NCBI RefSeq assembly: GCF_014656435.1 | Contig: NZ_BNCK01000001.1 | Span: 496,001-560,000, forward strand | Length of the DNA: 64,000 nt | Direction: 5' to 3' | From: Thalassotalea marina | Lineage (GTDB): Bacteria > Pseudomonadota > Gammaproteobacteria > Enterobacterales > Alteromonadaceae | Shown: positions 5,900 to 36,212 of the stretch, piece after piece | How the letters are laid out: each line of letters starts with the position of its first letter | How positions within the stretch are numbered: position 1 is the stretch's first letter | Program-made: the position numbers and the translations under genes | The notes under the pieces: generated by a model | Told to the model about the DNA's origin: nothing | What the model saw: only the letters and a program-made list of their open reading frames with translations | Database searches by the model: none

Positions 5900-5958
5900 G
5901 ATAATGTTTCGTTCTCGTGCTAAATTGTTTGTTAATAAGCAATATCTATTCCTATTTC

Positions 5959-7097
5959 TTAACCCAGCAGGGCACTGGTGACGATATTCAAGTCTTTGTC
6001 TGTTAGTGCAGGATGCATTGGAAGGGTCATTGATATCTGATAATAGTTTTCGGCCTTGGAGCAATAGTGAGAATTGAACCCCAATTGCTGATAAAATGGT
6101 TGCTTGTAAATAGGAATATAGTGTACGTGTGCTTGAATGCCTTGGCTACGTAGTTTAGAGACAATAATCTTTTTGTTAGCCAGAGACCAATCATGAAATT
6201 GCACAATATAAAGATGAAAGCTTGATATGGTGTTATGTTGACGTTTGAGAGGCGCATATTGAGAGCCTTTCAGCAGGGTATCGTATTGGCTAGCAAGTTG
6301 GTGACGTTTATCTATAAAGTTTTCAATCTGCTCAAGCTGAGAGGTACCAAGAGCTGCTTGTATATCGGTCATTCTGTAATTAAAGCCCAGCATACCTTGT
6401 TCATAGTACCATGGTCCATGCTCTGCTCTCATGGCCTCATTGCTATCAATTCCATGACTCCTGAGCTTTCTGAGTTTGTCATGTAATTGGCTTGAGTTAG
6501 TCAGTGCAGCACCGCCTTCTCCTGTCGTGATAATTTTAACTGGATGAAAGCTAAACACTGTAATATCTGAATATTGGCAAGCTCCTACCGGTATATTTTG
6601 GTATTTTCCGCCTATGGCATGACTAGCATCTTCTACAATGCTAAATCCAAAACACTTACTTAGTGCATGAATTTTTTCCATGTCACAGCTTTGTCCCGCT
6701 AAATGCACGGGAATTACCACTTTTGGTAATTTGCCAATCTTTTGGGCATGAATGAGCTTCTCTTCCAATGCATCGACTGACATATTGCCTGTTGCCAATT
6801 CTACATCGACAAAGTCAATTTCGGCACCACAATAAATAGCGCAGTTTGCAGAGGCTACAAAGGATATAGGACTTGTCCAAACGATATCTCCATTTGTAAC
6901 GCCAAGAGCTAAACAAGCGCTATGCAAGGCACTGGTGGCATTGGTAAAGCTAACGGAATATTTGGCACTGCAATAGTTGGCAAGCTTTTCTTCAAAGTGT
7001 TCAACCATTTTACCTTGGGTAAGATGAGAAGAAGATAAAACGTCTAATACTGCTTCTTTGTCTTGTTCTGAGATGATCTGTTGACCATATAAAATCA

Positions 7098-8305: not shown

Positions 8306-9919
8306 GTGTCCAAAATAGTTTGTATATTACAAGCGAGAACAAACTCAACCCGTTTACCTGCCAAGGTACTATTACCTGTCGCCGGAATTCCTTTGATTGT
8401 ACTGGCAGCCAAAAGAGCGGCAAATACTGGGCTAGAAGTGGTCGTTGCAACTTCTAATCAAGCCAGTGACGACATGTTGGCCAGTACCCTAAAGCTTGCT
8501 AATGTTAACGTTGTTCGTGGGTCCTTAGACAATACCCTGAAAAGGTTTGTATTAGCGACAGAGCAATATACTGATCAAACCATCATTGTCCGATTAACCG
8601 GCGACAATGTTTTTCCTGATGGTCAATTTATTGATGAGTTAGTTGATTATTATTTACAGTACTCACTTGATTATGTCGGTACAACAGGAGCAGGAAGTGG
8701 TCTGCCATATGGTGTTTCAGCTGAGGTTTTTAAGTTACACCATCTGCGAGAAGCTTATCACAAAGTTAAAGATGATTATTCGAAAGAGCATGTAACGCCT
8801 TTTATTTACGCTACCTATGAAAACCATTTGTGTAAAAAGTATCGTGAGTTAAACATGGAAAGTTTGTCTTGTACTGTGGATACGTTAGATGATTATTTAA
8901 AAATAGCGGCACTATTTGAAGATGTTAGCTCTCCTATTGATATATCCTGGCTTGAACTTAGCGAACGATTAAATAAACAAGCACAAGCACACAAAGCAAG
9001 TAAAATCATGCTTGGTGGCGCTCAGTTAGGGTTAGATTACGGCATTAACAATCAATCTGGAATGATGTCTGTTGATGAACTAAATTTATTTTTAAACACT
9101 GCATATGAAATGGGAATTAAATGCATTGATAGTGCACAAGCCTATGGAGAGAGTGAACAGCGTATTGGTCAGTGTATTCGTTTAATAGATAAACCATTTT
9201 CTATTAATACTAAACTAACGCCTAATTTGCTTCCTTTGACCGACATTAATAAACAGCCGCTTATTGAGCAGGTGAAAGAGTCACTGGCAGAGTCGGTATA
9301 CAACTTAAAAGAAAACCTAAGCTCTTTAATGCTACATAGATTAGAGCATGCCTATCTCGATGACGGGGTGGTTTGGCAATATTTAGTGAATTTAAAAGAG
9401 CAAAAAGAAGTTTTGCAGATTGGTATATCAGTCCAAACACCGGAAGAATTGGAAAGGGCTTTAACATTACCCCAAGTCGATATCATTCAAATGCCATTTA
9501 ATGTGTTAGACCATCGATGGGATGTTGCTATCAACAAAACAATAGAATTAAAAAAGCAGTCTGCTATTTCAATTCACGTGCGCAGTGTCTTCTTGCAAGG
9601 GCTATTAGTTTCTAGTGATCTCATGCATTGGCAAAAAGCTCACCTCAATCAACAAGAAGCCTTAGACGTTTTAACTTGGCTAGATAAAATGGCTCAACAC
9701 TGTCATTGTGACTCCAAGCAGCAGCTATGTTTGGCTTATGTTAATGCACAACCTTGGGTGGATAAGATTGTGTTAGGTATAGACTCTTTGCCACAACTTT
9801 TAAATAACTTGGAAACGTTTCACCAAATAAAATTATCCAAGATGCAGTTAAATGAGATAAGTAAAAACAAGCCTATGTTAGATGAAAAAACGCTGAACCC
9901 TGCACTATGGGAGAGTTAA
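8306..9919 (+). CDS. pseF: PseF-like cytidylyltransferase fused to aldo/keto reductase
   Basis: Two-domain protein of 537 residues. Residues 1 to about 210 are a SpsF/PseF-type CTP transferase: the CTP-binding start ILQARTNSTRLPAKVL (7-22) and RLTGDNVF (96-103). It should activate the nonulosonate as a CMP-sugar. Residues about 232-537 are an aldo/keto reductase with the full tetrad visible: Asp275 and Tyr280 in IDSAQAYGES, Lys303 in NTKLTP, His344 in LMLHRLE. In most pseudaminate loci these are separate proteins or the reductase is absent. The substrate of the reductase is unknown; the acyl-aldehyde genes further down are a possible link. The start is GTG (MSKIV); no in-frame ATG fits. No other pseF candidate is present. 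Confidence 0.86.
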   Translation: MSKIVCILQARTNSTRLPAKVLLPVAGIPLIVLAAKRAANTGLEVVVATSNQASDDMLASTLKLANVNVVRGSLDNTLKRFVLATEQYTDQTIIVRLTGDNVFPDGQFIDELVDYYLQYSLDYVGTTGAGSGLPYGVSAEVFKLHHLREAYHKVKDDYSKEHVTPFIYATYENHLCKKYRELNMESLSCTVDTLDDYLKIAALFEDVSSPIDISWLELSERLNKQAQAHKASKIMLGGAQLGLDYGINNQSGMMSVDELNLFLNTAYEMGIKCIDSAQAYGESEQRIGQCIRLIDKPFSINTKLTPNLLPLTDINKQPLIEQVKESLAESVYNLKENLSSLMLHRLEHAYLDDGVVWQYLVNLKEQKEVLQIGISVQTPEELERALTLPQVDIIQMPFNVLDHRWDVAINKTIELKKQSAISIHVRSVFLQGLLVSSDLMHWQKAHLNQQEALDVLTWLDKMAQHCHCDSKQQLCLAYVNAQPWVDKIVLGIDSLPQLLNNLETFHQIKLSKMQLNEISKNKPMLDEKTLNPALWES

Positions 9920-9920
9920 T

Positions 9921-10709
9921 GTGATAGATATGTTTTCACTTAAAGGGCAAGTTGCTCTAGTTACAGGTGCTTATGGGCATTTAGGCAAATCAATTACTTA
10001 CGCATTAGCAGAAGCTGGCGCTCAAGTTATTATACAAGGGCGAGATAAGGACAAAATTGCTTCATTAGCCGCTGAACTAAATTCCCTATCTTATGACGTT
10101 AAAGAGGCATGTTTTGATATCACTGATAAAGATGCAACTGCCCAATATTTTGAACAAGCAAATTTACATAAATTAAATGTATTAGTTAATAATGCTTATT
10201 CTGGGGTTGGTGGAACAATAAAAACATCTACTGAGCAACAATACCATGACGCCTATGACATTGGCTTGGTTAGTGTGCAACGATTGTTTAAACTCACGTT
10301 GCCACTGCTTGAACAAGGGGTGATTGAAGACAATAATGCTAGTTGCATCAATATCGCTTCTATGTACGGTCTAGTGTCACCTGATTTTGCTATTTACGAG
10401 TCAGAACAAGGCTCAAACCCACCATTTTATGGTGCAGTAAAAGCGGCACTATTGCAGTGGACACGGTACTGTGCTGTGCAATTTGCCAAACAAGGTATTC
10501 GAATAAATGCCATCGCACCAGGGCCATTTCCCAATAAAATTGTGCAACAAGACAAAGCGTTTATCAGTCGATTACAGGATAAATCTCCTATGGGGCGTAT
10601 TGGCAAACCTGATGAAATTAAAGGCGCTATTGTCTATTTGGCCTCTAAAGCGTCATCATATGTCACAGGAGAAAATATTTCAGTTGATGGTGGCTGGACA
10701 GCTTGGTGA
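9921..10709 (+). CDS. SDR-family NAD(P)-dependent oxidoreductase
   Basis: Classical short-chain dehydrogenase/reductase of 262 residues. It has the cofactor motif TGAYGHLG (15-22), a NNAYSG segment in place of the usual NNAG, and the catalytic Ser147, Tyr170 and Lys174 (FYGAVKAA). The ending (VTGENISVDGGWT) is typical of the family. The GTG at 9921 is chosen because a GGGAGAG site lies 5 bases before it; an ATG nine bases later is too far from that site. It follows pseF by one base and belongs to the nonulosonate operon. Substrate unknown; a keto-sugar or the side chain of the modified nonulosonate is plausible. Confidence 0.85.
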   Translation: MIDMFSLKGQVALVTGAYGHLGKSITYALAEAGAQVIIQGRDKDKIASLAAELNSLSYDVKEACFDITDKDATAQYFEQANLHKLNVLVNNAYSGVGGTIKTSTEQQYHDAYDIGLVSVQRLFKLTLPLLEQGVIEDNNASCINIASMYGLVSPDFAIYESEQGSNPPFYGAVKAALLQWTRYCAVQFAKQGIRINAIAPGPFPNKIVQQDKAFISRLQDKSPMGRIGKPDEIKGAIVYLASKASSYVTGENISVDGGWTAW

Positions 10710-10776
10710 GTTTAAATACTAAAGCCCAATACAGTTCTATTGTGCTAAAAGCGTAAAGAAGAAAACTGGAGAGTAA

Positions 10777-11505
10777 ATGCATTCATACGTATTTTTGTCA
10801 GAGCAAGGTAGGCATAGCGTAACTTATCAGCATTTGTGCCGTTTAATACCTGGTGATTGGCATTGGATTAAACATGAAGAGCAATTTACTGCGTCTGTGT
10901 TACAGGAACTAAGCCCCCAATTTGTTTTTGTTCCCCATTGGTCCTATAAAATCGCAAAAGAGATAACGGAACGTTTTCAATGTGTCATGTTTCATATGAC
11001 AGATTTACCTTATGGGCGAGGTGGTAGCCCTTTACAAAACTTAATTGTAAGAGGTAAAACAAGCACACAATTAACGGCGTTTAAGTGTATGGGCTCTATG
11101 GATGCAGGGCCTATTTACGCCAAGTTACCTTTATCATTGCAGGGTTCTGCCACTGAAATTTTTGCTCGGGCAGACGAATTAGTAATTTCTTTAATTGAAT
11201 TGATTATTAAACATAACATAACCCCTGAAGCACAAAGTGGTGAGTCAGAAATATTTGTCCGTCGAAATCAAGCGCAAAGTGATATTGCACCGTTATTTAT
11301 TGATGGCAGTAACTTGCATCCTGAATCCACTAAAGAAAAAGCCCCATTAATTCAAATATATGATCATATTCGAATGTTAGATGCTCAAGGCTACCCCAGG
11401 GCATATATGCAAGGGAAAAAAATTCGAGCGGAATTTTCTGATGCCAAGCAAACCGCGGAAGGAATAAAAGCCACTGTGCTTTTTAGAGAAATAAGTGATG
11501 AATGA
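10777..11505 (+). CDS. Formyltransferase-family protein (Fmt/ArnA-like)
   Basis: A 242-residue protein with a formyltransferase fold that uses N10-formyltetrahydrofolate. The core motif FHMTDLPYGRGGSP (72-85) aligns with the catalytic region of Fmt and ArnA, and MDAGPIY (108-114) supplies the conserved Asp109. His73 is kept, but the Asn that normally stands two residues before it is Met71. This is seen in the sequence and may mark a subfamily rather than loss of function. In a pseudaminate cluster it probably N-formylates an amino sugar, like PseJ-type enzymes. It has a GGAGAG ribosome site and ends overlapping pseI. Confidence 0.8.
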   Translation: MHSYVFLSEQGRHSVTYQHLCRLIPGDWHWIKHEEQFTASVLQELSPQFVFVPHWSYKIAKEITERFQCVMFHMTDLPYGRGGSPLQNLIVRGKTSTQLTAFKCMGSMDAGPIYAKLPLSLQGSATEIFARADELVISLIELIIKHNITPEAQSGESEIFVRRNQAQSDIAPLFIDGSNLHPESTKEKAPLIQIYDHIRMLDAQGYPRAYMQGKKIRAEFSDAKQTAEGIKATVLFREISDE

Positions 11506-12550
11506 AATATATATAGACGGCCGTAGTATTGGTCAACAACATGTTCCCTTTGTAATTGCAGAACTCTCTGGTAATCATGGCCAGTCTTTTGACTACGCAA
11601 AAAGCATGATTGATGCCGCTGCAGAAGCAGGTGCACATGCCATCAAATTACAAACTTATACTGCCGATACCATGACCTTAGCGTGTGAGTTGCCCGACTT
11701 TCAAATTGATGAACAAAATAACCTCTGGAAAGGTCAATCGTTGCATACACTTTATCAACAAGCTTACACTCCTTGGGAGTGGCATGAAGCGCTATTTGGC
11801 TATGCAAAAAGCAAAGGTTTAATTGCGTTTAGTTCACCGTTTGATATTTCAGCGGTAGACTTTTTAGAAACACTTGATGTGCCATGTTATAAAATAGCAT
11901 CCTTTGAAAATAACGACTTGCCGTTAATAAAACGGATTGCCCAAACAGGGAAACCCGTCATCATGTCGACCGGTATGGCCTCACTAACTGAGATATCAGA
12001 GGCGGTAGATACCCTGCGTACTAACGGTTGTAGTGATTTTGTCCTACTAAAATGTACTAGTGCTTACCCTGCCTTGGCTAGTGAGGCTAACTTGGCAACC
12101 ATTACCCATTTAGCCAATACCTTCAATTGTCCTGTTGGTTTGTCAGATCATACATTAGGACTGGGAGTCGCTTTGGCGAGTGTACCGCTGGGGGCTTGCG
12201 TTATCGAAAAGCATTTTGTGTTATCACGAGATCATGGTGGTGTTGACGCAGCCTTTTCACTGGAGCCCGAAGAATTAGCCATGTTGGTGAGAGAAAGTAA
12301 AAGAGCGTTTGAAGCTGTTGGTATGGTTACCTATGGCGGTACCGTTATTGAACAAGATTCTAAAAAATACCGACGCTCAATTTATATCAGTAAAGATGTC
12401 AAAAAAGGCGATATTTTATCTGCAGAAAACCTTCGAATTGTGCGTCCTGGTTTTGGTTTAGCACCTAAATATTGGCAACAGGTGTTAGGCTCAAGGGTAA
12501 CAAAAGACGCAACTCTCGGCACAGCCCTAACATGGGAGCATATCAAGTGA
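11498..12550 (+). CDS. pseI: PseI, pseudaminic acid synthase
   Basis: Condenses the 2,4-diacetamido-2,4,6-trideoxy-altrose with phosphoenolpyruvate to make the nine-carbon acid. The 350-residue protein has the NeuB barrel, beginning IAELSGNHGQSFDYAK with IKLQTYTADT and later GLSDHTLG and IEKHF, followed by a C-terminal SAF/antifreeze-like domain from about residue 290 (RRSIYISKDVKKGDILS). An ATG at 11498 directly after an in-frame GTG gives the usual start. It overlaps the formyltransferase stop by 8 bases. Assignment to Pse rather than sialic or legionaminic acid rests on pseB, pseC and pseG in the same locus. Confidence 0.94.
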   Translation: MNEIYIDGRSIGQQHVPFVIAELSGNHGQSFDYAKSMIDAAAEAGAHAIKLQTYTADTMTLACELPDFQIDEQNNLWKGQSLHTLYQQAYTPWEWHEALFGYAKSKGLIAFSSPFDISAVDFLETLDVPCYKIASFENNDLPLIKRIAQTGKPVIMSTGMASLTEISEAVDTLRTNGCSDFVLLKCTSAYPALASEANLATITHLANTFNCPVGLSDHTLGLGVALASVPLGACVIEKHFVLSRDHGGVDAAFSLEPEELAMLVRESKRAFEAVGMVTYGGTVIEQDSKKYRRSIYISKDVKKGDILSAENLRIVRPGFGLAPKYWQQVLGSRVTKDATLGTALTWEHIK

Positions 12551-13212
12551 AAACAGTATTAGTTGTAGCGGCTCACAGTGATGATGAAGTTTTAGGTTGT
12601 GGTGCCACTATTGCAAAACATGTAACTGAAGGTGATCAGGTTCATTTGTTAGTGTTAACTAATGGAGTTTCCGCCAGAGAGGGGGCGAATGATACCGATA
12701 TTGCATCACGAGAGCTGGCATTAAGTAATGCAGCTAAAACCCTAGGAATCCATAAGGTGGTTCAGTGTGATTTTCCTGATAACCAACTAGATAGTGTCGC
12801 GTTATTAGATATTGTGCAGTGTATTGAAAATAAAACCCAAGGTTTAAGCCCTGATATTATTTATACCCACAATGCCAGTGACTTAAACATTGACCATCAG
12901 CTTACCTGTAGAGCGGTACAAACGGCCTTTAGGCCACAACCTGATTGTTCGGTAAAAACTATTCTAACGTTTGAAGTGTTATCTAGTACAGAATGGCAAT
13001 TTACCGAGCAAAAATTTTCTGCCAATTGGTTTGTTGATGTTAGTGACTTTATAGAGCAAAAAATTACCGCAATGCAGTGTTATCAATACGAACTTCGAGC
13101 ATTTCCTCATCCTCGTTCTGTCGAAGGTATAAAAATACTCGCTAACTACCACGGCATGCGTATCGGGGTTTCATATGCTGAAGCATTTCAGGTATTGCGC
13201 CATTTAACATGA
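12547..13212 (+). CDS. PIG-L (LmbE) family N-deacetylase
   Basis: Zinc-dependent deacetylase of 221 residues. The metal site AHSDDE lies at 9-14 and the second part HNASDLNIDH follows near 107-116. The GTG start at 12547 is chosen because GGGAG lies 8 bases before it and it overlaps the pseI stop (GTGA). Family members remove N-acetyl groups from sugars. Here it would free an amine on the nonulosonate or its precursor, which the nearby formyltransferase or acyl module could then re-acylate. That order is inference. It is not part of the standard six-step pseudaminate route. Confidence 0.86.
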   Translation: MKTVLVVAAHSDDEVLGCGATIAKHVTEGDQVHLLVLTNGVSAREGANDTDIASRELALSNAAKTLGIHKVVQCDFPDNQLDSVALLDIVQCIENKTQGLSPDIIYTHNASDLNIDHQLTCRAVQTAFRPQPDCSVKTILTFEVLSSTEWQFTEQKFSANWFVDVSDFIEQKITAMQCYQYELRAFPHPRSVEGIKILANYHGMRIGVSYAEAFQVLRHLT

Positions 13213-14237
13213 TAAATAAACGGGTATTATTTAGGTTTGATGCTAATGCAGAAATGGGTACAGGCCACGCGATGCGCTGTTTTGCTTTGATACAAGCCTT
13301 ACAAAAAGCCAGTGTTGAGGTTTACGTTCTCGCCAAAGAATTGCCCTCATTTTTCATAGAAAAATTGACAAAGTCAGGTGTTACCTACCTTCTTTTAGCA
13401 GATAAGACCATTGATAGTGAACTTACTCAAATAGAAAAAACTATCGCTGTTTATCAAATTGACATTGTGTTACTTGATGGTTATCACTTCGACAGTGCCT
13501 ATCGGCAGCAACTGAGCAACTTTAAGGTAAAGCTGATTGCATTTGATGATACTAAATCACTTGAAGATCTTTATTGTCATGGTGTTATCAATGCACTTCC
13601 TAATGCTCATCAACTGATGTATCAGAATTCACCCTATCTGGAAAAAGCTTTTTTAGGATTATCTTTTGCACTTTTAAGAGAAGAATTTCATCACATTAAA
13701 GTAAAGCCATTGGCTGAAAAACAGAAAATATTAGTGTGTTTTGGTGGTAGTGATATTGGCGGCTTAACTTTTAATGTGTGCCAACAACTTGTTGCTAAAT
13801 TACCTAAGAAAATAGTTGAGCAAATTGAAGTGGTGGTCGGGCAGTTAGCACCAAACAAAAGCAGATTAAAGGCGCTAGCACAAACACACGGTTTCACTTA
13901 TACAGAGCAATGCAACAATATGGCTGAATTGCTTAATGATTGTTATTTTGCTGTTGCTGCACCTGGCAGTATAGTCTATGAACTAGCTTATTGTCGTGTA
14001 CCTAGTGTGTTTTTTACGGTCGCAGATAACCAAATCATGTCGGCGCAGCAGCACCAATTAAAAGGCTGGTGTAACGTAGTTAATGGATTGGATGACCAAC
14101 AAGTAAGGTTAGGAATAAGTATGGCAATTGAGCTTTTAAAAAATAAAGCGCAACTAAATAAAATGTATAGTGCCACACAAGGGCTCGTTGATCTTGATGG
14201 TGGGCAAAGAATTGCCACTGAAATCATACGTTGGTAG
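13209..14237 (+). CDS. pseG: PseG, UDP-sugar hydrolase
   Basis: Removes UDP from UDP-2,4-diacetamido-trideoxy-altropyranose, giving the free sugar for PseI. The 342-residue protein has the PseG N-terminal signature RFDANAEMGTGHAMRC, with the catalytic-type His20 after MGTG, and a GT-B-like C-terminal half (CFGGSDIGG, later AAPGSIVYELAYCRVP). It overlaps the deacetylase by four bases (ATGA). It is longer than the shortest PseG proteins but has no extra domain. Confidence 0.92.
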   Translation: MINKRVLFRFDANAEMGTGHAMRCFALIQALQKASVEVYVLAKELPSFFIEKLTKSGVTYLLLADKTIDSELTQIEKTIAVYQIDIVLLDGYHFDSAYRQQLSNFKVKLIAFDDTKSLEDLYCHGVINALPNAHQLMYQNSPYLEKAFLGLSFALLREEFHHIKVKPLAEKQKILVCFGGSDIGGLTFNVCQQLVAKLPKKIVEQIEVVVGQLAPNKSRLKALAQTHGFTYTEQCNNMAELLNDCYFAVAAPGSIVYELAYCRVPSVFFTVADNQIMSAQQHQLKGWCNVVNGLDDQQVRLGISMAIELLKNKAQLNKMYSATQGLVDLDGGQRIATEIIRW

Positions 14238-14250
14238 TACAGGAGCGAAT

Positions 14251-14805
14251 TTGTTTAGCACAATTAATAAGTATGGTGTTTCGTTAACACCAATTGCTGA
14301 AAAAGACATAGAAACTATTCGTTGCTGGCGAAACCACCCTGAGGTTTCAAGATTTATGTTTTCACAAGATTTTATTTCGCCAGAACAACAGCAAGCTTGG
14401 TTTTCATCAGTATCGCAAAAATTGAATGAATGCTACTACATGGTTACGTTTCGTGACCAAGAATTTGGTGTGGTTTATGCAAAGTCATTAGATAACCAAG
14501 CTCTTTATCAAGCTAAATTTATTGAACCAGGTTTATACCTAGACCCGGCCAGTCAGCTAAAAAGTAGCCTGTTAGCCTTTGCACCGTCGCTTGCTTTACT
14601 TGATGAGTTTTTTTCTCAAGGTCAATGTGAACAATTTACAGCGCAAGTGTTAACGGAGAATACCAGTGCGTTGAGGTATAACAAAAGTTTAGGTTATGTC
14701 ATTGACTCAACAAGATCGAGCGAAGAAATATTGACCATGCACCTTAGCGCACAGCAGTTTGAGCAAGCGACAAGTAAAATAGGTGGATTATTGTCCCGTT
14801 ACTAG
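14251..14805 (+). CDS. pseH: PseH-type GNAT N-acetyltransferase
   Basis: Acetyl-CoA-dependent N-acetyltransferase for C4 of the altrosamine intermediate. The start is decided by the ribosome site: AGGAG lies 5 bases before a TTG at 14251, giving 184 residues, while the longer in-frame form would run 68 bases into pseG. The protein opens with GVSLTPIAEKDIETIRCWRNHPEVSRFMF, a shape typical of PseH (short extract: CWRNHPEVSRFMF), and ends with the GNAT pattern VLTENTSALRYNKSLGY. It completes the set PseB-C-H-G-I-F. Confidence 0.88.
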   Translation: MFSTINKYGVSLTPIAEKDIETIRCWRNHPEVSRFMFSQDFISPEQQQAWFSSVSQKLNECYYMVTFRDQEFGVVYAKSLDNQALYQAKFIEPGLYLDPASQLKSSLLAFAPSLALLDEFFSQGQCEQFTAQVLTENTSALRYNKSLGYVIDSTRSSEEILTMHLSAQQFEQATSKIGGLLSRY

Positions 14806-14894
14806 GCAAATTTCATAAAACCGTTGATTGTCAAAGGCGTAGCGCTAATAATCTAGGATAACGCTCGTACATATTAAACAAGAAGAGAATATAC

Positions 14895-15146
14895 ATGCCA
14901 GCTCAGCAAACCTTAATTGAAGCATTTGCCGTCGCTTTAGAAATTGAACCGCAAGAGGTTGTTGATTCACTTACTTATAGCGAACATCCTAAGTGGGACT
15001 CAACGGCACATATGATACTTGTTGCACAACTGGAAGCTGACTTTGATGTTATGTTTGAAATTGATGACATTATCGATATGAGTTCAGTGAAAAAAGCAAA
15101 AGAAATATTGACCAAATATCAACCTTCATTATCGTTTGATGGTTAA
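14895..15146 (+). CDS. Acyl carrier protein
   Basis: An 83-residue acidic ACP. The phosphopantetheine attachment site is Ser36 in WDSTAHM, which fits the short DS motif of polysaccharide-cluster ACPs rather than the DSLD of fatty-acid AcpP. The rest is the four-helix pattern with ILVAQLEADF and the IDDIIDM recognition helix. It opens a five-gene module (ACP, SDR, ligase, LuxE, LuxC), 89 bases after pseH. That gap has no firm promoter, though weak -35/-10 pairs can be drawn. Its likely role is to carry a short or hydroxylated acyl group for glycan decoration. Confidence 0.88.
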   Translation: MPAQQTLIEAFAVALEIEPQEVVDSLTYSEHPKWDSTAHMILVAQLEADFDVMFEIDDIIDMSSVKKAKEILTKYQPSLSFDG

Positions 15147-15154
15147 GGGCTAAT

Positions 15155-15886
15155 ATGGATAATGTTCTGGTTACAGGCGCATACGGCGGTATTGGCACAG
15201 CTGTTTGCCGTGCATATGCTAAATTAGGTGCTCACTTGATTATTGTAGGGCGCGACCTTGATAAACTAAATACGCTAAAAAAATCACTTGAGAGTGAATT
15301 CAGCGCTAGTACTACGATGCAATGTATTGATCTTAATCAGCCAGAACAAATCAATGCTATGTGTAATACCCTGAGAAAACAAGTGGGTTCAATTGATGTA
15401 ATGGTGCATTGTGCGGGCATGATGCATGAAGCACCGCTTATGATGACACGACCAGAAGAAATTACTGATCTCGTTAGCACTAATATCATCAGCAGTATTC
15501 AAGTTACCCAAGCAATTAGCAAGTTAATGATCCGTCAGAAAAAAGGCGCTATTACCCTAATGAGCTCTATTGTTGCTAAACAGGGGGCAGCGGGACAATC
15601 AGTCTATTGTGCAAGTAAAGCGGCAATAGACGGCTTAGTTGTGTCATTAGCACAAGAGCTTGGCGCATTAAACATTCGTGTCAATGCAATTGCTCCAGGT
15701 TTTATCGAAACACCTTTAGTTGCTCATTACGATGACGAACAGCGAAAATCACTGACCAGCAAAGTAGCACTTAAACGTTTAGGTACGCCAAACGATATTG
15801 CCAAGGTGGCCTGCTTTTTATCATCACCAGCAGCAAGCTACATTACCGGGCAAATTATTTCGGTTGATGGTGGGCTTAGGCTTTAG
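15155..15886 (+). CDS. FabG-like short-chain dehydrogenase/reductase
   Basis: A 243-residue SDR with TGAYGGIG (7-14), HCAG at 85-88, catalytic Ser138, Tyr151 and Lys155 (YCASKAA), and the ISVDGG ending of FabG-type enzymes. It follows the ACP by 8 bases, so reduction of a 3-oxoacyl-ACP or similar carrier-bound group is the natural reading; a sugar substrate cannot be excluded. It lies in one run with the ligase, with only 4 bases to the next start. Confidence 0.86.
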   Translation: MDNVLVTGAYGGIGTAVCRAYAKLGAHLIIVGRDLDKLNTLKKSLESEFSASTTMQCIDLNQPEQINAMCNTLRKQVGSIDVMVHCAGMMHEAPLMMTRPEEITDLVSTNIISSIQVTQAISKLMIRQKKGAITLMSSIVAKQGAAGQSVYCASKAAIDGLVVSLAQELGALNIRVNAIAPGFIETPLVAHYDDEQRKSLTSKVALKRLGTPNDIAKVACFLSSPAASYITGQIISVDGGLRL

Positions 15887-15890
15887 CCCA

Positions 15891-17309
15891 ATGAATCAAT
15901 ACTTTTGGCAAACCGATGTTCTTGCAAACTGCTATGCTGACAACGTAGCGCTATCATGTGCCCAAACAGGCCGTCAGTTAAGTTATAAAGAACTTGAAGC
16001 GGCAATAAAACTTGCTCAACAGTCATTAGCCATTGATAAAAAGTTATTGGTATTAATTAAAGCTAAGCCAAGTATCGATTTTGTTGTTTATTACCTGGCA
16101 TGTTTACGTATAGGACATACAGCATGGTTAATTGATCCCGAAACGTCGCAACTCGTGTTAGATAATTGGTTTGAACGTTATCAATTTGATATGGTGATTG
16201 ATGACGGCAATTTATTTTGGCGGAAGACGAGCCAACCTATTGATACTCCTATAGCAGACAATCTTGCTTTGTTACTTTCGACCTCTGGCTCAACCGGGAG
16301 CGCCAAATTGGTCAAATTAAGTGTGGAAAACATAGCCAGCAATTGCCAGGCAATTTGTACCTATTTACCGATAAAAGGTACTGCCATTACCACCTTACCG
16401 TTTCACTATAGTTTTGGCTTATCCATTTTACATACCCATCTTGCTAGTGGTGCACAACTTGTGTTGAGTGCTAGTAGTATTGTCACTAAAGATTTTTGGC
16501 AGTTATTTGAACTGCATCAAGCCCATTGTTTTTATGGGGTTCCTCATCAATTTGCCATGTTAAGTCGTTTGGGCTTAGCTCGACTAAAATTGCATTGTCT
16601 TGAATACTTTGCGGTTGCTGGTGGTAAACTACCAGAAAAATATGCCGAGGAACTGGCGATTTGGTGTCATGATAATCACAAACAGTTGTTTATCATGTAT
16701 GGACAAACAGAGGCGACTGCGCGAATCAGTTATTTGCCGCCTAATAAAGCACTAGCTAAACCTAACTCGATTGGACAAGCAATTCCAAATGGTAAGTTGT
16801 GGTTATTAGATAATAAAGGTTGCTTAATTACGGAGCCAAAGAAGAAGGGGCAGCTATATTATCAGGGAAAAAACGTGATGTTAGGTTATGCACAACAACG
16901 TGATGATCTTGTCGTTACTGAATCATCTGAACAATTGGCGACAGGCGATCTTGCATATTTTGATGATGACGGTGATTTTTATATAACAGGACGAGAAAAA
17001 CGAATCGCGAAAGCCCAAGGTATTAGAATTAACCTAGACGAGATTGAACAATATATTGTTGAGCAAAATTCTCAAATTGAAAGTGTTGCTGTAATAGAAC
17101 TAGATGAAAAGTTGTTTGTGTTGCTTGTTTGGCCAGGAGCAACTGAATTGGATAGTAAAGCGCTAAAATCAGCGCTTGGTCAATTTCTAAAACTACATGG
17201 CAGTATGTTAGTTGTTAGATTACTGACAAGTTTGCCTCGATTGTCGTCAGGGAAAGTTGATTATGCAAGCATAACCGCACAATGTCTAAAAGGAGATTGT
17301 AGTGATTAA
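15891..17309 (+). CDS. AMP-dependent acyl ligase (ANL superfamily)
   Basis: Adenylate-forming enzyme of 472 residues, somewhat short for the family. The phosphate-binding loop is TSGSTGSAKLVK (131-142); MYGQTEATARISY and the GDLAYFDDDGDFYITGRE region (core motifs A5-A8, with the TGR Arg) are present, and the ending SGKVDYA supplies a Lys where the catalytic A10 lysine lies. It probably loads a carboxylic acid onto the neighbouring ACP. The ATG at 15891 is used; the longer frame would overlap the SDR gene by 89 bases. The last bases overlap the LuxE-like gene. Confidence 0.87.
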   Translation: MNQYFWQTDVLANCYADNVALSCAQTGRQLSYKELEAAIKLAQQSLAIDKKLLVLIKAKPSIDFVVYYLACLRIGHTAWLIDPETSQLVLDNWFERYQFDMVIDDGNLFWRKTSQPIDTPIADNLALLLSTSGSTGSAKLVKLSVENIASNCQAICTYLPIKGTAITTLPFHYSFGLSILHTHLASGAQLVLSASSIVTKDFWQLFELHQAHCFYGVPHQFAMLSRLGLARLKLHCLEYFAVAGGKLPEKYAEELAIWCHDNHKQLFIMYGQTEATARISYLPPNKALAKPNSIGQAIPNGKLWLLDNKGCLITEPKKKGQLYYQGKNVMLGYAQQRDDLVVTESSEQLATGDLAYFDDDGDFYITGREKRIAKAQGIRINLDEIEQYIVEQNSQIESVAVIELDEKLFVLLVWPGATELDSKALKSALGQFLKLHGSMLVVRLLTSLPRLSSGKVDYASITAQCLKGDCSD

Positions 17310-18372
17310 CTCTGCATGGCATAACTTAATCTCTCTAGCTCCTTATGCGCTATCGCACGAAGAAAAGGCGGCCATTTTTGCAAAATATGGTAATGAGCTC
17401 GTTAAGCATCATTATGAACATTGTCAGCCATATCAAAACATTCTCGATTTTTTTCATTTAACTGAGCAAACATTTGAGCAAGCGCCGCCCCTACATACCA
17501 GCATGTTTAAACTTCATGAACTGCGCTCTATACAACAAAACGATGTTTTTAAGGTCACCACTTCGTCAGGCACTACTGGCCAGCAAGTGTCGAAAATTTA
17601 TCTGGATAAAACAAATATCGCGCGTCAGCAAAAAATATTAAGCAGTATTGTTAAAGAATGGTTAGGGAATAAGCGATTACCTATGTTGATCATAGATCAT
17701 CCAAATGTGATCAAGGACCGGTTTTCATATTCTGCTCGAGGTGTTGGTATTCAAGGGTTATCTTTGTTTGGGCACCATCATACCTATGCATTAAATGAAG
17801 ACATGAGTATTAACTGGCCATGCGTTGAAGGTTTTATTGAACAATATAAAGATGAAAAAATTTTCATCTTTGGTTTTACTTTTATGGTGTGGCAATACTT
17901 GTTGCAGCTTTTGGATAAAAACCAAAAACGTTTTGAGCTCAGTAATGCGCTTTTATTACATAGCGGTGGTTGGAAGAAGCTTATTGACCAAGCGGTATCA
18001 AATGAGCAATTTAAAACAACGGCTCAACAATACCTTGGTGCGGTAAATGTCCACAATTTTTATGGCATGGTTGAGCAAACTGGCACCATTCATGTGGAAT
18101 GTGAACAAGGTCATTTGCATTGCCCTACGTGGAGCGATGTTCATGTAGTCTCACCTGATAACTTGATACCGTTACCGATAAAGAAAAGCGGTATCATTGA
18201 ATTACATTCCTTATTACCTACCAGTTACCCAGGACACAAAATTCTTACCGAAGATACCGGTTTTCTAGTTGGCATCGACGATTGTCCTTGTGGGCGAAAA
18301 GGGAAGTATTTTCAGGTGACGGGGCGCGTTAAACGCGCTGAAATTAGGGGGTGCAGTGATACACAATCTTAA
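17302..18372 (+). CDS. LuxE-like acyl-protein synthetase
   Basis: A 356-residue member of the LuxE family, which adenylates a fatty acid and moves it to an enzyme cysteine before reduction by LuxC. The ATP motif TSSGTTGQ lies at 87-94, with HNFYGMVEQTG near 250 and a Cys pair (CPCGRKG) near 329-335, in the region where LuxE carries its acyl-cysteine. GTG start with AGGAGA 6 bases upstream. No luciferase genes are present, so the aldehyde product must serve another purpose. It overlaps both neighbours, so it is made with them. Confidence 0.88.
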   Translation: MINSAWHNLISLAPYALSHEEKAAIFAKYGNELVKHHYEHCQPYQNILDFFHLTEQTFEQAPPLHTSMFKLHELRSIQQNDVFKVTTSSGTTGQQVSKIYLDKTNIARQQKILSSIVKEWLGNKRLPMLIIDHPNVIKDRFSYSARGVGIQGLSLFGHHHTYALNEDMSINWPCVEGFIEQYKDEKIFIFGFTFMVWQYLLQLLDKNQKRFELSNALLLHSGGWKKLIDQAVSNEQFKTTAQQYLGAVNVHNFYGMVEQTGTIHVECEQGHLHCPTWSDVHVVSPDNLIPLPIKKSGIIELHSLLPTSYPGHKILTEDTGFLVGIDDCPCGRKGKYFQVTGRVKRAEIRGCSDTQS

Positions 18373-19537
18373 TTTGGTCAATAATTTACAACTACTGTTT
18401 CCTATTAACCATGAATTTGAGCTTGAGCAATTTGTTCAACAAAAGCCCATAAATGCATTTTCTGATGAAGTACTCGATGTATTATCTGAGCTAGGGGCTT
18501 TTTTACGAGAACATGGTCGAGAGCTGCCAAATATTATTGCTGTTGGCTTTTGGCTGAGAAAGCAACATTTACTAATGCTTAAGTCGCAGTATCGAAGTTT
18601 ACATGGCCGAGGAATATCACTTCATTTTGCTCCAGGTAACGTTGATACCTTGTTTTTTTATTCAGCCATTATTTCCGTAGTGACAGGGAACTTAACTATG
18701 GTGCGAGTAAGTCATCAAAATCATCAAGCGGCAGCGCCTTTACTTGCCATGTTAAATGAATTTGTAAATTGTCATCCGCTAGGAAAAAAACTCGCTGAGC
18801 GCTTAGTCATTTTTACCTATGAAAAGTCCTCTGAAATTTCTGCGCTGTTGAGCAAGTTCGCAGATGTTCGAGTGATTTGGGGGGGTAACGAAGCCGTTAC
18901 GGCAATACAAAAACTGCCCATTAAAAATGGCGCTATTGATTGTAGTTTCCCTGATAGATATTCCATCTCGATATTAACGCTAAGCGATGTATCTGAAATT
19001 AATGCAGCGGCTACTGCATTTGCCGCTGATGTAAAACCATTTTTTCAACAAGCTTGTGCATCACCAAAAGTGGTTTATTGGGTAAATACGGCGCAAGAAT
19101 TGCAAAAAGTATTCTGGCAGCAAGTATCAGCGTTAATAACCAAAGCGAAACTAACCTTGTCTGCCGGCGACAGTTTGCGGCGCTATTTATTTTTGCAACA
19201 AGCGAGTTTGTTAACAGATAACAACTGCGCTATTGGATTTAATGACAATACTTTGACAGTAATAGAAGGTGATGATTTTAACGGTGAATTGTTAACCGCT
19301 CATCCCGGCTTATTTATTTTTCTAAGTCACAATGTTCTGTCTCTGGAACCGATAAATCTGCTGTCGCACTGTCAAACAATAGGTGTGTTTGACTTAAGCT
19401 GCAATGTGCAAAATGAAATAGAAAAACAAACGAAATGGCCACATAGACAAATAGTAAAGTTAGGTAGAGCGCTTGAGTTTACACCTGTGTGGGATGGCAT
19501 TGACTTAATTAAGCAACATTGTACTGAGCAAGTGTAA
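18356..19537 (+). CDS. LuxC-like acyl reductase
   Basis: A 393-residue aldehyde-dehydrogenase-fold protein of the LuxC family, which reduces an acyl thioester or acyl-enzyme to an aldehyde with NADPH. The signature FAPGNVDTLFFYS (91-103) is present, and the active-site cysteine is Cys234 in QQACASPK. GTG start overlapping the LuxE-like gene by 17 bases, after an AGGGGG site. Paired with the LuxE-like enzyme it should release or pass on an aldehyde. Use as a step in building a glycan acyl or alkyl group is inference. A hairpin follows the stop codon. Confidence 0.88.
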   Translation: MIHNLNLVNNLQLLFPINHEFELEQFVQQKPINAFSDEVLDVLSELGAFLREHGRELPNIIAVGFWLRKQHLLMLKSQYRSLHGRGISLHFAPGNVDTLFFYSAIISVVTGNLTMVRVSHQNHQAAAPLLAMLNEFVNCHPLGKKLAERLVIFTYEKSSEISALLSKFADVRVIWGGNEAVTAIQKLPIKNGAIDCSFPDRYSISILTLSDVSEINAAATAFAADVKPFFQQACASPKVVYWVNTAQELQKVFWQQVSALITKAKLTLSAGDSLRRYLFLQQASLLTDNNCAIGFNDNTLTVIEGDDFNGELLTAHPGLFIFLSHNVLSLEPINLLSHCQTIGVFDLSCNVQNEIEKQTKWPHRQIVKLGRALEFTPVWDGIDLIKQHCTEQV

Positions 19538-26151: not shown

Positions 26152-26808
26152 ATGAGTAAGTCGTTTTTTGAGCCTCAGTATGATTTTTTAAATGAGACGC
26201 CTGAGATAAAACTCGGTTTAATGAGTGCTGGTACTTGGTATAAAGATCCAAAACGTTTTGCCTTTGTTCTTGCTCGTTATAAGTTTGTTGCAAAAATGCT
26301 AGCTGGAAAATCTCATGTACTTGAAGTTGGTTGTGGTGATGCATTTGCCAGTCGAATAGTACAACAAGACGTTGAGCAGTTGACGGTTTTAGATGTAGAT
26401 GAAACATTTATACAAGACATTGAGCAGCGATCATGTGAACGTTGGCCATTAAAGGCTGTTTGTCACAACATTCTAGATGGGGCTCTGCCTGCAAATTATG
26501 ACGCTGCATATTCATTAGATGTCTTTGAGCATATAGACCCTGAACTTGAACATGTGTATTTACAAAACCTTGGAAGCTCTTTAACCGAGAATGGCGTTGC
26601 CATTATTGGAATTCCGTCATTGGAGTCGCAAAAGTACGCATCTCCTGAGAGTATCGAAGGTCATGTTAATTGCAAGTCAGGACTAGATTTTAAGAAGGTT
26701 TGTGAAAAGCATTTTAAGCATGTTTTTCTGTTTTCTATGAATGATGAAGTTGTGCACACTGGTTTCTATCCGATGGCACACTATTTATTAGCACTTTGCA
26801 TAAAGTAG
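26152..26808 (+). CDS. Class I SAM-dependent methyltransferase
   Basis: A 218-residue methyltransferase with VLEVGCGDAFASRIV (about 55-69), LTVLDVDE, and AAYSLDVFEHIDPE as motif IV. The ATG at 26152 is used because TAGGAG lies 5 bases upstream; a longer in-frame version would overlap the preceding gene. Two methyltransferases side by side suggest a doubly methylated sugar, which is inference. Confidence 0.83.
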   Translation: MSKSFFEPQYDFLNETPEIKLGLMSAGTWYKDPKRFAFVLARYKFVAKMLAGKSHVLEVGCGDAFASRIVQQDVEQLTVLDVDETFIQDIEQRSCERWPLKAVCHNILDGALPANYDAAYSLDVFEHIDPELEHVYLQNLGSSLTENGVAIIGIPSLESQKYASPESIEGHVNCKSGLDFKKVCEKHFKHVFLFSMNDEVVHTGFYPMAHYLLALCIK

Positions 26809-26819
26809 CGAGATATACC

Positions 26820-27632
26820 TTGGATAACCAATTAAAAAATCTTAGAAAAGAGATTAGATATAAGCTAGTTGAAGTCTCACATTTTACCAAAACTCCCCAT
26901 TTGGGAAGCTGTTTATCGTCTGTTGATCTGTTAATAACCTTGTATTGGCGCATATTAAATTTGTATCCAGATAATCCAAAACATGCGGAACGTGATTACT
27001 TCCTGCTTGGTAAAGGTCATGCAGCCTCAGCTCTTTATACCGTGCTTGCTTATAGAGGTTTTTTTAACATAGATAAACTGATGGAACATGGCAAAGATAA
27101 CTCTGCTTTTGAAGAGCATCCGGGGGTCAACGCGCCACCGGGTGTGGAAGCGGTATCTGGGTCTCTTGGTCACGCCCTTTCTTTAGCAACAGGGATGGCT
27201 AAAGCAGCTAAAATACAAGATTTGGGCAACACATTTTATGTACTGGTCGGTGATGGCGAACTAAATGAGGGTACTATTTGGGAAGCCGCCATGTTTGCCC
27301 CCGCGCATCAATTGTCTAACCTTGTTTTGGTTATTGATTTTAACAAGTTACAAGGTACAGGTGAAAGTTGTAATATTATGCAGCTTGAACCATTAGACGA
27401 AAAGTTTAAGTCGTTTGGTTGGTTTGTTAAAAGAGTAAATGGCCACTGTCTAACAGAATTAGAAGATGCTTTTAATCAGTGTAAATTACAGCAAAATAAA
27501 CCAAGTGTTGTCATAGCCGATACAATAAAAGGAGACGGGATTTCTTTTATGGAGGGAGACAACAACTGGCACTATCGAATTCCTTCACAAGAAGAACTAC
27601 CAATTATTGCTGACGAATTGGGGATTTCATGA
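26820..27632 (+). CDS. Transketolase, N-terminal (TPP-binding) subunit
   Basis: First half of a split transketolase, 270 residues from a TTG at 26820 (an earlier TTG at 26796 overlaps the previous gene; choice is uncertain). It carries TPHLGSCLSSVD, GKGHAASALYTVLA and the TPP/metal motif starting VGDGELNEGTIWEAAMFA. It should bind thiamine diphosphate and pair with the next gene product. A dedicated transketolase in a glycan cluster can supply sedoheptulose 7-phosphate or transfer a two-carbon unit to make a branched or longer sugar. Confidence 0.9.
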   Translation: MDNQLKNLRKEIRYKLVEVSHFTKTPHLGSCLSSVDLLITLYWRILNLYPDNPKHAERDYFLLGKGHAASALYTVLAYRGFFNIDKLMEHGKDNSAFEEHPGVNAPPGVEAVSGSLGHALSLATGMAKAAKIQDLGNTFYVLVGDGELNEGTIWEAAMFAPAHQLSNLVLVIDFNKLQGTGESCNIMQLEPLDEKFKSFGWFVKRVNGHCLTELEDAFNQCKLQQNKPSVVIADTIKGDGISFMEGDNNWHYRIPSQEELPIIADELGIS

Positions 27633-28552
27633 GAAATAAGTTTGCGGAAGTTTTGTTACAGCTAATGGAACAAGACGATAAAGTTGTTCTTCTATATGCC
27701 GATATTGGTAACCGTTTGTTTAACAAACACAAAGAGCTTGCTCCTGATCGGGTCATCAATGCAGGTATTGCCGAAGCAAATATGGCTTCCATGGCGGCAG
27801 GCATGGCAAAAATGGGGCTGAAACCGGTTATCTATACCATTACACCGTTTACGACTGCCCGTAATTTCGAACAAATCAAAATTGACATTGCTTATCAAAA
27901 CTTACCCGTTACGATCGTTGGAACAGGGTCTGGGCTTGCTTATGCAAATCTAGGTCCGACTCACCACTCTTTCGAAGATATAGCATTAATGCGTGTGCTG
28001 CCTAATATGCAAGTGGTTTGTCCATGTGACTCAAATGAGCTTTCTGCTCTATTACCCCAAGCGATTGCTAGTGGTAAACCCTGTTACTTGAGAATAGGCA
28101 AAAAAAATGAGCCTTTGATAAATGTACAAGAACCATCGGCAACAATAGGCAAGGTTAACATTATAAAGCGCGGTCTTGATGTATGTATTTTAGCGGTAGG
28201 AACCATTATTGATTTAGCGGTTGAATTACAACATAAGCTTGAAGAGCAAGGTAAAGACGTTCAGTTAGTTAGTTTTCATACTGTAAAGCCTCTCGATAGC
28301 GAGTTTTTGCTAAGTTTAGTCAATCAGTATCGGCAGGTGATCATATTGGAGGAACATAGTAAACACTGTGGTGCCGGAAGTGCGATATTTGAATGGCAAA
28401 TAGACAACAATGTCATGTTAAATATTAGTCATTTTGCCATTGATGACAAATTTATAGATCAAGTTGGCAGTACACAATCTGCCCGCATCAAAGCAAGGCT
28501 TTGCCTTGATTTTATATTGAATAAACTAAAAAATAAGGCACTAGTCGTTTGA
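27629..28552 (+). CDS. Transketolase, C-terminal (pyrimidine-binding) subunit
   Basis: Second half of the split transketolase, 307 residues. The catalytic glutamate is in NAGIAEANMASMAAG (Glu49), followed by the Pyr domain (FTTARNFEQIK, GPTHHSFEDIALMR) and the C-terminal transketolase domain (ILAVGTIIDLAVEL, VVSFHTVKPLD-like region). ATGA overlap with the first half ensures balanced synthesis. Confidence 0.9.
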   Translation: MRNKFAEVLLQLMEQDDKVVLLYADIGNRLFNKHKELAPDRVINAGIAEANMASMAAGMAKMGLKPVIYTITPFTTARNFEQIKIDIAYQNLPVTIVGTGSGLAYANLGPTHHSFEDIALMRVLPNMQVVCPCDSNELSALLPQAIASGKPCYLRIGKKNEPLINVQEPSATIGKVNIIKRGLDVCILAVGTIIDLAVELQHKLEEQGKDVQLVSFHTVKPLDSEFLLSLVNQYRQVIILEEHSKHCGAGSAIFEWQIDNNVMLNISHFAIDDKFIDQVGSTQSARIKARLCLDFILNKLKNKALVV

Positions 28553-35800: not shown

Positions 35801-36212
35801 GATAAAAAAGTTAGCTCTTGAAGAACAAGTTATTTACCTTGGAAGAGTAAAAAATGTGAGACGAATTCTCGCGGCGTCTGACTTTATGTTATTGACGTCT
35901 GGATTTGGTGAAGGAACCCCAAATGTACTAATAGAAGCCCAAGCGTCAGGTATTCCTGTGGTGTCAACCGAGGCAGGTGGAGGAGCTAGAGAAGCGGTAT
36001 CAGATGAAAAAAGTGGGTTTATATTAAAAGACGACGATATAGATGGTGTAGTTGAAAAAGTATTATTACTTCTGCGGGATGAAAGCAAGTTAAACAGAAT
36101 GAAAAAAGAAGCCCTTAATTTTATTGCTGAGAATTACTCTACAGCAGTTTTGGAACAACAGCTTTCTCAACTTTATCTTCGAGACGTGACTAAGGTGCAA
36201 AAACATGACTAA
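32832..36212 (+). CDS. Asparagine synthetase (AsnB-like) fused to GT4 glycosyltransferase
   Basis: An unusual 1126-residue fusion. Residues 1 to about 600 are a full class B asparagine synthetase: Cys2 glutaminase nucleophile (MCGIAGVVNG), FNGEIYNF, the PP-loop SGGVDS (268-273), and GDGADELFAGY. AsnB homologues in glycan clusters often amidate uronic acids. After a linker of about 110 residues, residues about 715-1126 are a GT-B glycosyltransferase: FLMHDLASAGAERQL and the C-terminal GFGEGTPNVLIEAQASG site with two Glu. The frame is open without a break, so the fusion is real in this sequence. Amidation and transfer of the same sugar by one protein is inference. Confidence 0.86.
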   Translation: MCGIAGVVNGPYNKQKLEEQLTQVNAQLIHRGPDDEGMWLSSDGCTGFAHRRLSIIELTEKAHQPYRKEGKSFVLVFNGEIYNFKELKEELEDLGCDIDANSDTEVLYAALITWGVSALPKLDGMFAFAFYDEVKKELLLARDNFGEKPLYYCSIGKGIAFASELTALIRLDGFDNTINENSVAQYLFLQYVDAPSTIFTNAKKLEPGTFLVVKDGTIVEKSTYYEFSPEENLINRDIETLADELEEILLDSIRKRLIADVPIGAFLSGGVDSALVVALIRKKLKLPLKTFSIGFSDTDATEHQFAREIAEFLGCEHHEKILSPKELEIATDIMNALDEPNADTSCLPYYLLSQFASKHIKVAITGDGADELFAGYSRFSETVALNKSGIPVKIGQSYYDSHLCVWPEDDITSSIKGRVFQFQRVKDELYAEVDKPEGTILNKLRCTDLKHYLPGSVLSKVDRMSMQFGLEVRTPFLNKAIAGFAQKLSEQELLETTSGKRVLKVLAKRYLPAEWIDRKKMGFSVPYDKAWENKLRENIKSFSSQSQISYDTWFVKGSINKLVDKQNLFQLWSAFVLLNYLKRYGKGYKQIPIEYSDWLAANGIEVSEKKSEKLAESLPLIYDSELKCLVPFNKQEAFDDLKQHVFSRQISKRQKGGTLTLAPTPLFNRHTPKRTWQLFKEIIFYAKDIVNNQLHFSMIEKLINADNGLIDSDTPIKHVVFLMHDLASAGAERQLCLNAIAAKNIGCEVSVVILRRLVDKNIHYVSLLKEHDIAVSTCFYPNLNLDECKINRALNRNSIDILVGLPLPIQRQVWNLITMLSRMNADALHCFVDESCIVGGLAALLFDIRKVVFSFRNKNPTHFSYSQPWLKPYYNKLIKSKRIILTGNSIAGNNDYADWLKVPKSKILLIRNAINKRDYSFITDIERIEARQALSLSIDVKCISGIFQLEKYKRPHTFLKVISQIKQRFGGNFKVLVAGDGQLQLSFLTTIKKLALEEQVIYLGRVKNVRRILAASDFMLLTSGFGEGTPNVLIEAQASGIPVVSTEAGGGAREAVSDEKSGFILKDDDIDGVVEKVLLLLRDESKLNRMKKEALNFIAENYSTAVLEQQLSQLYLRDVTKVQKHD

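Follow-up and report, generated by a model that had tools for sequence, protein, structure and literature searches.

We analyzed a stretch of 64,000 nucleotides from the 4.87-Mb genome of Thalassotalea marina (contig NZ_BNCK01000001.1, positions 496,001 to 560,000; hereafter "the window"), which contains a pseudaminic acid (Pse) locus and, after its pseH gene, a module of five genes (14895-19537) that includes homologues of LuxE and LuxC. The module lies downstream of genes encoding PseI, a PIG-L deacetylase, PseG and PseH. Flagellar genes flank it on both sides: flagellin, FlaG, FliD and FliS are encoded upstream, and FleQ, FliF, FliK, FliP and FHIPEP family proteins downstream. A Maf-type protein with an MptE-like domain (3443-6064) is also encoded within these flagellar surroundings.

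The genes of the module and of the pathway around it (8306 to 19537) are on the + strand. The first gene of the module (14895..15146) encodes a dedicated acyl carrier protein (ACP), whose PP-binding match of 16.9 bits is under the Pfam cut-off of 20.8, and in which Ser36 lies in a DST motif. It is followed by a FabG-like short-chain dehydrogenase/reductase (SDR; 15155..15886; Pfam adh_short_C2, 200 bits), with the motifs TGAYGGIG and YCASK, which is our proposed aldehyde reductase. The next gene encodes an AMP-forming ligase (15891..17309; AMP-binding, 146 bits; TSGSTG, GQTE and SGK), proposed to load a hydroxy acid onto the ACP. We take both SDR motifs, as well as TSGSTG and SGK of the ligase, to be active-site motifs. 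The last two genes encode a LuxE-like acyl-protein synthetase (17302..18372; PF04443, 163 bits, cut-off 24.9) and a LuxC-like acyl-protein reductase (18356..19537; PF05893, 102 bits, cut-off 21, the match spanning residues 75-257 only). Both are homologous to the LuxC-LuxE fatty acid reductase of structure 7xc6 (E-values of 6e-18 for LuxE and 3e-8 for LuxC), and the active-site cysteines align: LuxE Cys351, in RGCSDT, lines up with KGCS and is invariant in an alignment of 22 sequences, and LuxC Cys234, in QQAC, lines up with the same motif of 7xc6 LuxC. Presumably, Cys351 is the acyl-accepting cysteine and Cys234 the catalytic one. In contrast, the NCBIfam models of the luminescence enzymes score LuxE at 76.4 (cut-off 550) and LuxC at 50.5 (cut-off 750), and the two proteins are therefore not equivalogs of those enzymes. 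Neither a luciferase nor LuxD is encoded among the five genes; the genome was not searched for luxAB.

An initial annotation, made by a model from the letters alone, had named this gene set with its coordinates, family assignments, place after pseH and LuxC Cys234, and all of these were confirmed by Pfam and NCBIfam searches and by the 7xc6 alignment. Its description of one overlapping run holds for the ligase, LuxE and LuxC genes (overlaps of 8 nt and 17 nt) and not for the remainder, as 89 nt separate the PseH and ACP genes, 8 nt separate the ACP and SDR genes, and the SDR and ligase genes probably do not overlap. The open reading frame (ORF) of the ligase reaches back to a TTG at 15798, and its start is probably the ATG at 15891, directly past the SDR stop codon.

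A profile search with PF04443 found matches in 61 of 394 genomes of the order and in 8 of 369 genomes of the class. From these matches we retrieved 52 regions in the order and 6 in the class, leaving out 13 short partial rows (approximately profile positions 276-375), and regarded a LuxE as module-type when it scored above 480 bits on a profile built from the fetched loci; 39 of the 52 order regions qualified. A scan of other named genomes, of which the best 80 of 570 relatives were kept, added loci from Pseudomonadota to Bacillota, Bacteroidales and Spirochaetales, with class read from record titles. The 121 module loci thus collected include the one-record duplicates L065/L098 and L058/L142, and the pair L069/L112.

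A search for the same five-gene order beside pseG or pseH in other genomes had been suggested with the initial annotation, and this order is indeed found elsewhere. The five genes occur together in 31 of the 39 order module loci, and because of this the grouping is more than chance; PseH (above 55 bits) is also encoded in the stretch in 32 of the 39, and an ACP above 60 bits in 38. Two loci in which the ligase is seemingly absent encode a ligase-LuxE fusion (L053, 9441-12080, 880 aa; L062, 7658-10474, 939 aa). PseI scores above cut-off in 39 of 40 module genomes (the window included) versus 102 of 354 module-less genomes, the species not being independent.

Fifty-four of the 121 module loci are in a pse context: 32 of 39 in the order, 1 of 2 in the class, 17 of 20 among other named gammaproteobacteria and 4 of 60 among the remaining named genomes. 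Outside Gammaproteobacteria, the module thus mostly sits away from pse loci. The initial annotation had counted co-occurrence with non-flagellar genes in most genomes against a flagellar role, and these figures touch that objection, with pse context, rather than flagellar genes, being what was measured. Genes for PglD-type hexapeptide transferases lie near the module in 14 loci, none of them in pse context; a representative of this cluster was verified by Pfam together with three single checks, two of which were under the PglD_N cut-off. DegT aminotransferases are encoded near the module in 52 loci, of which 29 are pse loci, where PseC itself counts. Such transferases and aminotransferases are what a general acyl donor for amino sugars predicts.

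The PseH encoded immediately upstream of the module (14170..14805), a GNAT-type protein that we propose as the acyltransferase, scores 71.0 bits on TIGR03585, under the cut-off of 93.1. We compared it with PseH from module-less loci. From 102 PseI-bearing genomes without the module, 75 were fetched and gave 58 PseH-like rows, each supported by both profiles or forming the C-terminus of a long PseG; L282 was dropped (branch of 5.07), which left 57. Module PseH rows were those above 100 bits on a profile from such loci, plus two lower-scoring rows added deliberately; they include the duplicate records L065/L098 and L058/L142, and L279 is counted among them. In the resulting tree of 112 rows, 52 of 55 module-linked rows group in one clade (support 98/93) that excludes all 57 module-less rows. 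Members of one genus (code g319, family f205), probably Aeromonas, are split between both PseH groups according to the presence of the module.

The converse search gave a similar picture. A model of 23 rows, many from the same genomes, was used to score at most 8 candidates per genome, and a line was drawn at 130 bits after we had seen a gap between 131 and 117 bits. Among the 394 order genomes, 33 have this PseH type above the line, and all 33 carry the module. The next two, at 117 and 102 bits, are module-less genomes. In the first of these (G614), PseH is encoded beside a KAS-III, an ACP-like protein, two SDRs and a ligase-like protein, which is another ACP cassette.

The module-linked clade also differs at residues that contact the donor. 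We took the roles of coenzyme A (CoA)- and acetyl-binding residues in Helicobacter pylori PseH from a published analysis (PMC4363471). The sites were mapped onto the rows through the alignment, in which 28 module-less rows are standard PseH and 29 are more distant. At the column of Gly103, which contacts the CoA pyrophosphate, 1 of 52 module-clade rows has glycine (39 have Ala, 9 Pro and 3 Ser), compared with 27 of 28 standard rows. Glutamate at the Glu126 column (acetyl contact) is found in 0 of 52 versus 20 of 28. The general-acid column, Tyr138, has Asn in 44 and His in 8 of the 52, versus His 15, Tyr 6, Gln 4 and Arg 3 of the 28, and the His49 column has Gln in 49 of 52 versus His in 21 of 28. 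Asn131, a pantetheine contact, is retained in 52 of 52 and 28 of 28. The window PseH has Ala, Gln and Asn at the equivalents of Gly103, Glu126 and Tyr138, and in this it differs from the H. pylori and Campylobacter jejuni enzymes (4ri1, 4xpk), with which it shares the GNAT fold and the place in the pathway. An AlphaFold model of the window PseH (pLDDT 87.3) has chains of 4ri1 as its top three Protein Data Bank matches, and the FdhC structure 5ktc, whose products are CoA and a 3-hydroxybutanoylamino sugar, is also among the structure matches. A retained pantetheine contact together with an altered pyrophosphate contact is what an acyl-ACP donor would predict, and we infer such a donor from these site changes, which may perhaps reflect one ancestral change.

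Two other PseH arrangements were noted. One genome (G417; loci L279 and L289) encodes a module-type PseH and ligase with no LuxE or LuxC beside them, and a full module lies approximately 63 kb away. We rejected this as a clean functional split, as decay of the copy is equally likely because the stretch between holds an apparent SDR end. Separately, module-less genomes have PseG ORFs of approximately 500 aa whose C-terminal part resembles PseH and which look like PseG-PseH fusions (L208, L212, L214-L218, L224, L225 and others).

The gene order itself has been published. In the flagella glycosylation islands of Aeromonas Group II, which comprises 98 strains, pseH is followed by orf1-3, luxE and luxC, and a "liposugar" function was guessed for them (PMC7874193). 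The window matches this arrangement of ACP, SDR, ligase, luxE and luxC after pseH in a flagellin glycosylation setting. It differs from it in two ways: the glycosyltransferase gene fgi-1 (GT2) lies downstream of luxC in Aeromonas, whereas the next gene past LuxC in the window encodes a HAD-type protein and a GT2 domain appears only later, at 30575; and the window has an additional PIG-L/formyltransferase pair. In Enterobacteriaceae flagellin glycosylation islands, proteins of Acp, LuxE, LuxC, CaiC and FabG types each occur in 71-80 strains, and the available text does not state that all five lie together after pseH (PMC4875605). The initial annotation had regarded a route by LuxE/LuxC chemistry as not worked out; as far as the literature seen goes, the gene order is published and the chemistry is not.

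A chemical precedent is suggested by the O1 antigen genes of Vibrio cholerae. We take RfbM to be an iron-containing alcohol dehydrogenase, and RfbN to be a LuxE-LuxC fusion. The O1 antigen is perosamine acylated with tetronate, and the genes involved are VC0248-VC0252 (PMC3441752). RfbL reportedly activates 2,4-dihydroxybutanoic acid and attaches it to CoA or to the carrier RfbK (PMC12208996). The rfbKLMN (wbe) set and the module share an ACP, which in the window is under the Pfam cut-off yet conserved, and an AMP ligase. They also have in common an alcohol dehydrogenase and LuxE/LuxC enzymes; in V. cholerae, this set serves to attach 2,4-dihydroxybutyrate to the amino group of a sugar. Unlike the cholera set, the module has an SDR instead of the iron-containing enzyme and encodes LuxE and LuxC as two ORFs, and the acceptor in V. 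cholerae is O-antigen perosamine, not pseudaminic acid. Two relatives (L039 and L040) encode an ACP, a ligase and, in place of the SDR, an iron-containing alcohol dehydrogenase, and their LuxE and LuxC are fused into one protein of 830 aa. Although the gene order is different, two unrelated alcohol dehydrogenases thus seem to share one job. Because the V. cholerae O1, L039 and L040 cassettes pair that dehydrogenase with LuxE-LuxC, we assign to the SDR the reduction of a LuxC-made aldehyde, rather than the fatty-acid reductase activity annotated in the Aeromonas report. Two further systems were considered as models and set aside. The Shewanella oneidensis sfmABCDE genes encode NeuB-like, thiamine pyrophosphate (TPP) enzyme, SDR, methyltransferase and ATP-grasp proteins, and "lux" does not occur in the available text, which makes this another system. 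Plesiomonas legionaminic flagella carry sugars of 316 and 358 Da, and "luxC" does not occur in the part of that report available.

Published masses bear on the identity of the acyl group. A. piscicola AH-3, in whose island pseH is followed by five ORFs of this type (PMC7874193), is reported to have flagellin with a Pse derivative of 376.14 Da and an unexplained moiety of 102 Da, and deletion of fgi-1 leaves 376.14 Da alone. The Pse5Ac7Ac residue has a mass of 316.127 Da, and replacement of one acetyl by dihydroxybutyryl gives a computed 376.148 Da; the dihydroxybutyryl group also matches the 102-Da moiety in nominal mass. None of the other acyl groups that we tried with an N5 acetyl came within 0.9 Da, except the isomeric O-methylglyceryl. 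For comparison, A. caviae Sch3, whatever its island type, has flagella reported to carry Pse5Ac7Ac.

We propose that the five genes form an acyl-donor cassette for pseudaminic acid. The starting compound would be a small dicarboxylic acid, for which malate is the most likely candidate; LuxE would adenylate one of its carboxyl groups and hold the acyl group as a thioester on Cys351. LuxC would accept this group on Cys234 and reduce it to an aldehyde, which the SDR would reduce to an alcohol, so that 2,4- (or 3,4-) dihydroxybutyrate results. The ligase would then activate the remaining carboxyl group and load the acid onto the ACP, from which the specialized PseH would move the acyl group to N4 of the uridine diphosphate (UDP)-4-amino sugar, the later N7 of pseudaminic acid. 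We give this full statement, including the acid, a probability of roughly 55%. That an acyl-ACP is supplied to PseH, whatever the acid, we consider quite likely. The substrate, the order of the steps and the ACP as direct donor are what we infer from gene content, conserved active sites, the PseH partnership with its changed contacts, and the mass match. On the same evidence, the initial annotation's proposal that the module makes an acyl building block on its carrier protein for the nonulosonate appears the most likely account. More tentatively, the PseH subfamily could have switched its donor from acetyl-CoA to a dedicated acyl-ACP, with Lux-type reduction of malate giving dihydroxybutyryl-ACP and hence the 376-Da Aeromonas-type Pse, as one use of a portable N-acyl cassette that works with GNAT or PglD-type transferases. 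Among open-licence papers, we recognized none that links the module, PseH and dihydroxybutyryl, which is no proof of absence. The module is real, conserved and already catalogued as genes, and unexplained as chemistry. Should the proposal hold, a concrete pathway would take the place of the "liposugar" function guessed for the gene set of 98 Aeromonas strains, and the unexplained 376-Da sugar of flagella would be assigned. The flagellar pathway would also be linked to that of cholera O1 tetronate, and PseH type would become a sequence test that predicts bacteria with dihydroxybutyryl nonulosonate.

Several observations weigh against this proposal. Malate as the starting acid is our own deduction from the carbon count. 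The 376-Da mass has isomers, namely O-methylglyceryl and a combination of Pse5Fo with dihydroxypentanoyl. A. hydrophila AH-1, whatever its module status, has a 403-Da glycan, and a figure legend marks a 376-Da sugar beside it. The SDR is absent from the fetched stretch in 5 of the 39 order loci (L048, L056, L057, L075 and L076; the ACP and ligase genes adjoin directly in 4 of these), and another dehydrogenase would therefore have to serve there. The partnership with PseH also has exceptions. Three module-linked PseH rows lie outside the clade, L108 and L148 (Bacillota) and L161 (Pseudovibrio), and 7 of 40 module genomes lack this PseH type above 130 bits, including G492, whose PseH is short (91 aa) and is encoded on a contig of 4.4 kb. 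With respect to the contact sites, the general-acid column still has His in 8 of the 52 module-clade rows, and neither His nor Tyr is found there in 7 of the 28 standard rows. Among the 29 module-less rows that are more distant, most of them PseG C-termini, Gly103 is mostly missing and Phe stands at the Tyr138 column, so that loss of Gly103 and Tyr138 alone is not module-specific. In addition, the association of PseH with the module essentially goes back to a single evolutionary event, so the donor need not be the cause of the site changes. Finally, the acid may differ in the mainly non-pse copies, because transketolase pairs and TPP enzymes adjoin many of them. Clusters of the transketolase pair (examples are L164, 7159-8175, and L170, 6496-7326) lie near the module in 24 loci (N-terminal part) and 28 loci (C-terminal part), only 2 and 4 of which are pse loci, and TPP enzymes lie near it in 10 loci, mainly non-pse.

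The cassette could instead make another short acyl group, such as hydroxybutyryl or a group derived from glyceryl or aspartate, with loading onto the ACP and transfer by PseH as before. LuxE/LuxC chemistry does not by itself determine which acid is used, and the extra TPP enzymes at many non-pse copies fit such variety. However, with an N5 acetyl the masses would be 360.15 Da for hydroxybutyryl, 392.14 for trihydroxybutyryl and 375.16 for a homoserine-like group, versus the reported 376.14, and O-methylglyceryl, with its equal mass of 376.148, would call for a methyltransferase, which is not among the five genes. We regard this alternative as rather unlikely. Masses also bear on the reading that fatty acids are channelled to a fatty aldehyde and the glycan bears a lipid, which is suggested by the family names and was guessed in both the Aeromonas (PMC7874193) and the Enterobacteriaceae (PMC4875605) reports. 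Octanoyl Pse would have 400.22 Da and myristoyl Pse 484.31 Da, not 376.14, and LuxE and LuxC are far under the luminescence equivalog cut-offs; we rejected this reading on both grounds and leave it a very small chance.

It is also conceivable, if improbable, that the aldehyde itself is the product, destined for another glycan sugar through transketolase or NeuB-like partners, and that PseH is an ordinary acetyltransferase. A split transketolase pair is encoded in the window (26796-28552), downstream of the module, and such pairs near the module in 24-28 other loci, as well as NeuB and a TPP enzyme within some cassettes, would agree with this. But the ligase and the ACP would then be left unexplained, as would a PseH subfamily with altered CoA contacts.

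Other genes at the locus belong to the pathway or to its surroundings. PseI (pseudaminic acid synthase, 11495..12550; TIGR03586, 491 bits) and PseG (UDP-sugar hydrolase, 13209..14237; TIGR03590, 205 bits) are both above cut-off and provide the pathway context. The initial annotation had drawn two further neighbours into the module, a PIG-L deacetylase (12472..13212; PF02585) that would free an amine and a cytidylyltransferase-aldo/keto reductase fusion (8306..9919; PF02348 and PF00248) that would finish the group, and neither assignment held. PIG-L (above 150 bits) is present in 9 of the 121 module loci, in 8 of them alongside a formyltransferase. In the window this partner is a formyltransferase-like protein (10777..11505; PF21553 above cut-off; PF00551 at 20.2 bits, under its cut-off of 26.1). 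The same pair is found in the module-less Pse loci L223, L228 and L232, and PIG-L without the formyltransferase in L122 and L212. These proteins look like a separate deacetylate-and-formylate pair, which probably exchanges one N-acetyl for N-formyl. The predicted sugar residue in T. marina is 376.15 Da or, because this separate pair may in addition alter N5, 362.13 Da with N5 formylated. The fused aldo/keto reductase was the best match of no ORF in the 58 LuxE stretches; other loci were not screened for it. In Aeromonas, according to a figure legend, Group I islands have an alpha/keto reductase and a deacetylase, and the lux-type genes belong to Group II islands (PMC7874193).

Some variants of the cassette and some downstream genes of the window are also of note. 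In module variants L105 (402-12230), L109, L117 and L118, a NeuB-type protein is encoded near the ligase, LuxE and LuxC, and L105 also encodes KAS-III, FabA-like, TPP enzyme and metallo-beta-lactamase-fold proteins; the aldehyde may serve as a substrate for NeuB in these variants. The pse locus L258 (10454-15225, genome G713) encodes a standard-type PseH together with a LuxC-like protein (179 bits), an SDR and a distant ligase, and no LuxE was seen in the stretch. Further downstream in the window, a protein with methyltransferase and GT2 domains (30575-32461) and an asparagine synthase-GT1 protein of 1126 aa (32832-36212) suggest a longer flagellar glycan.

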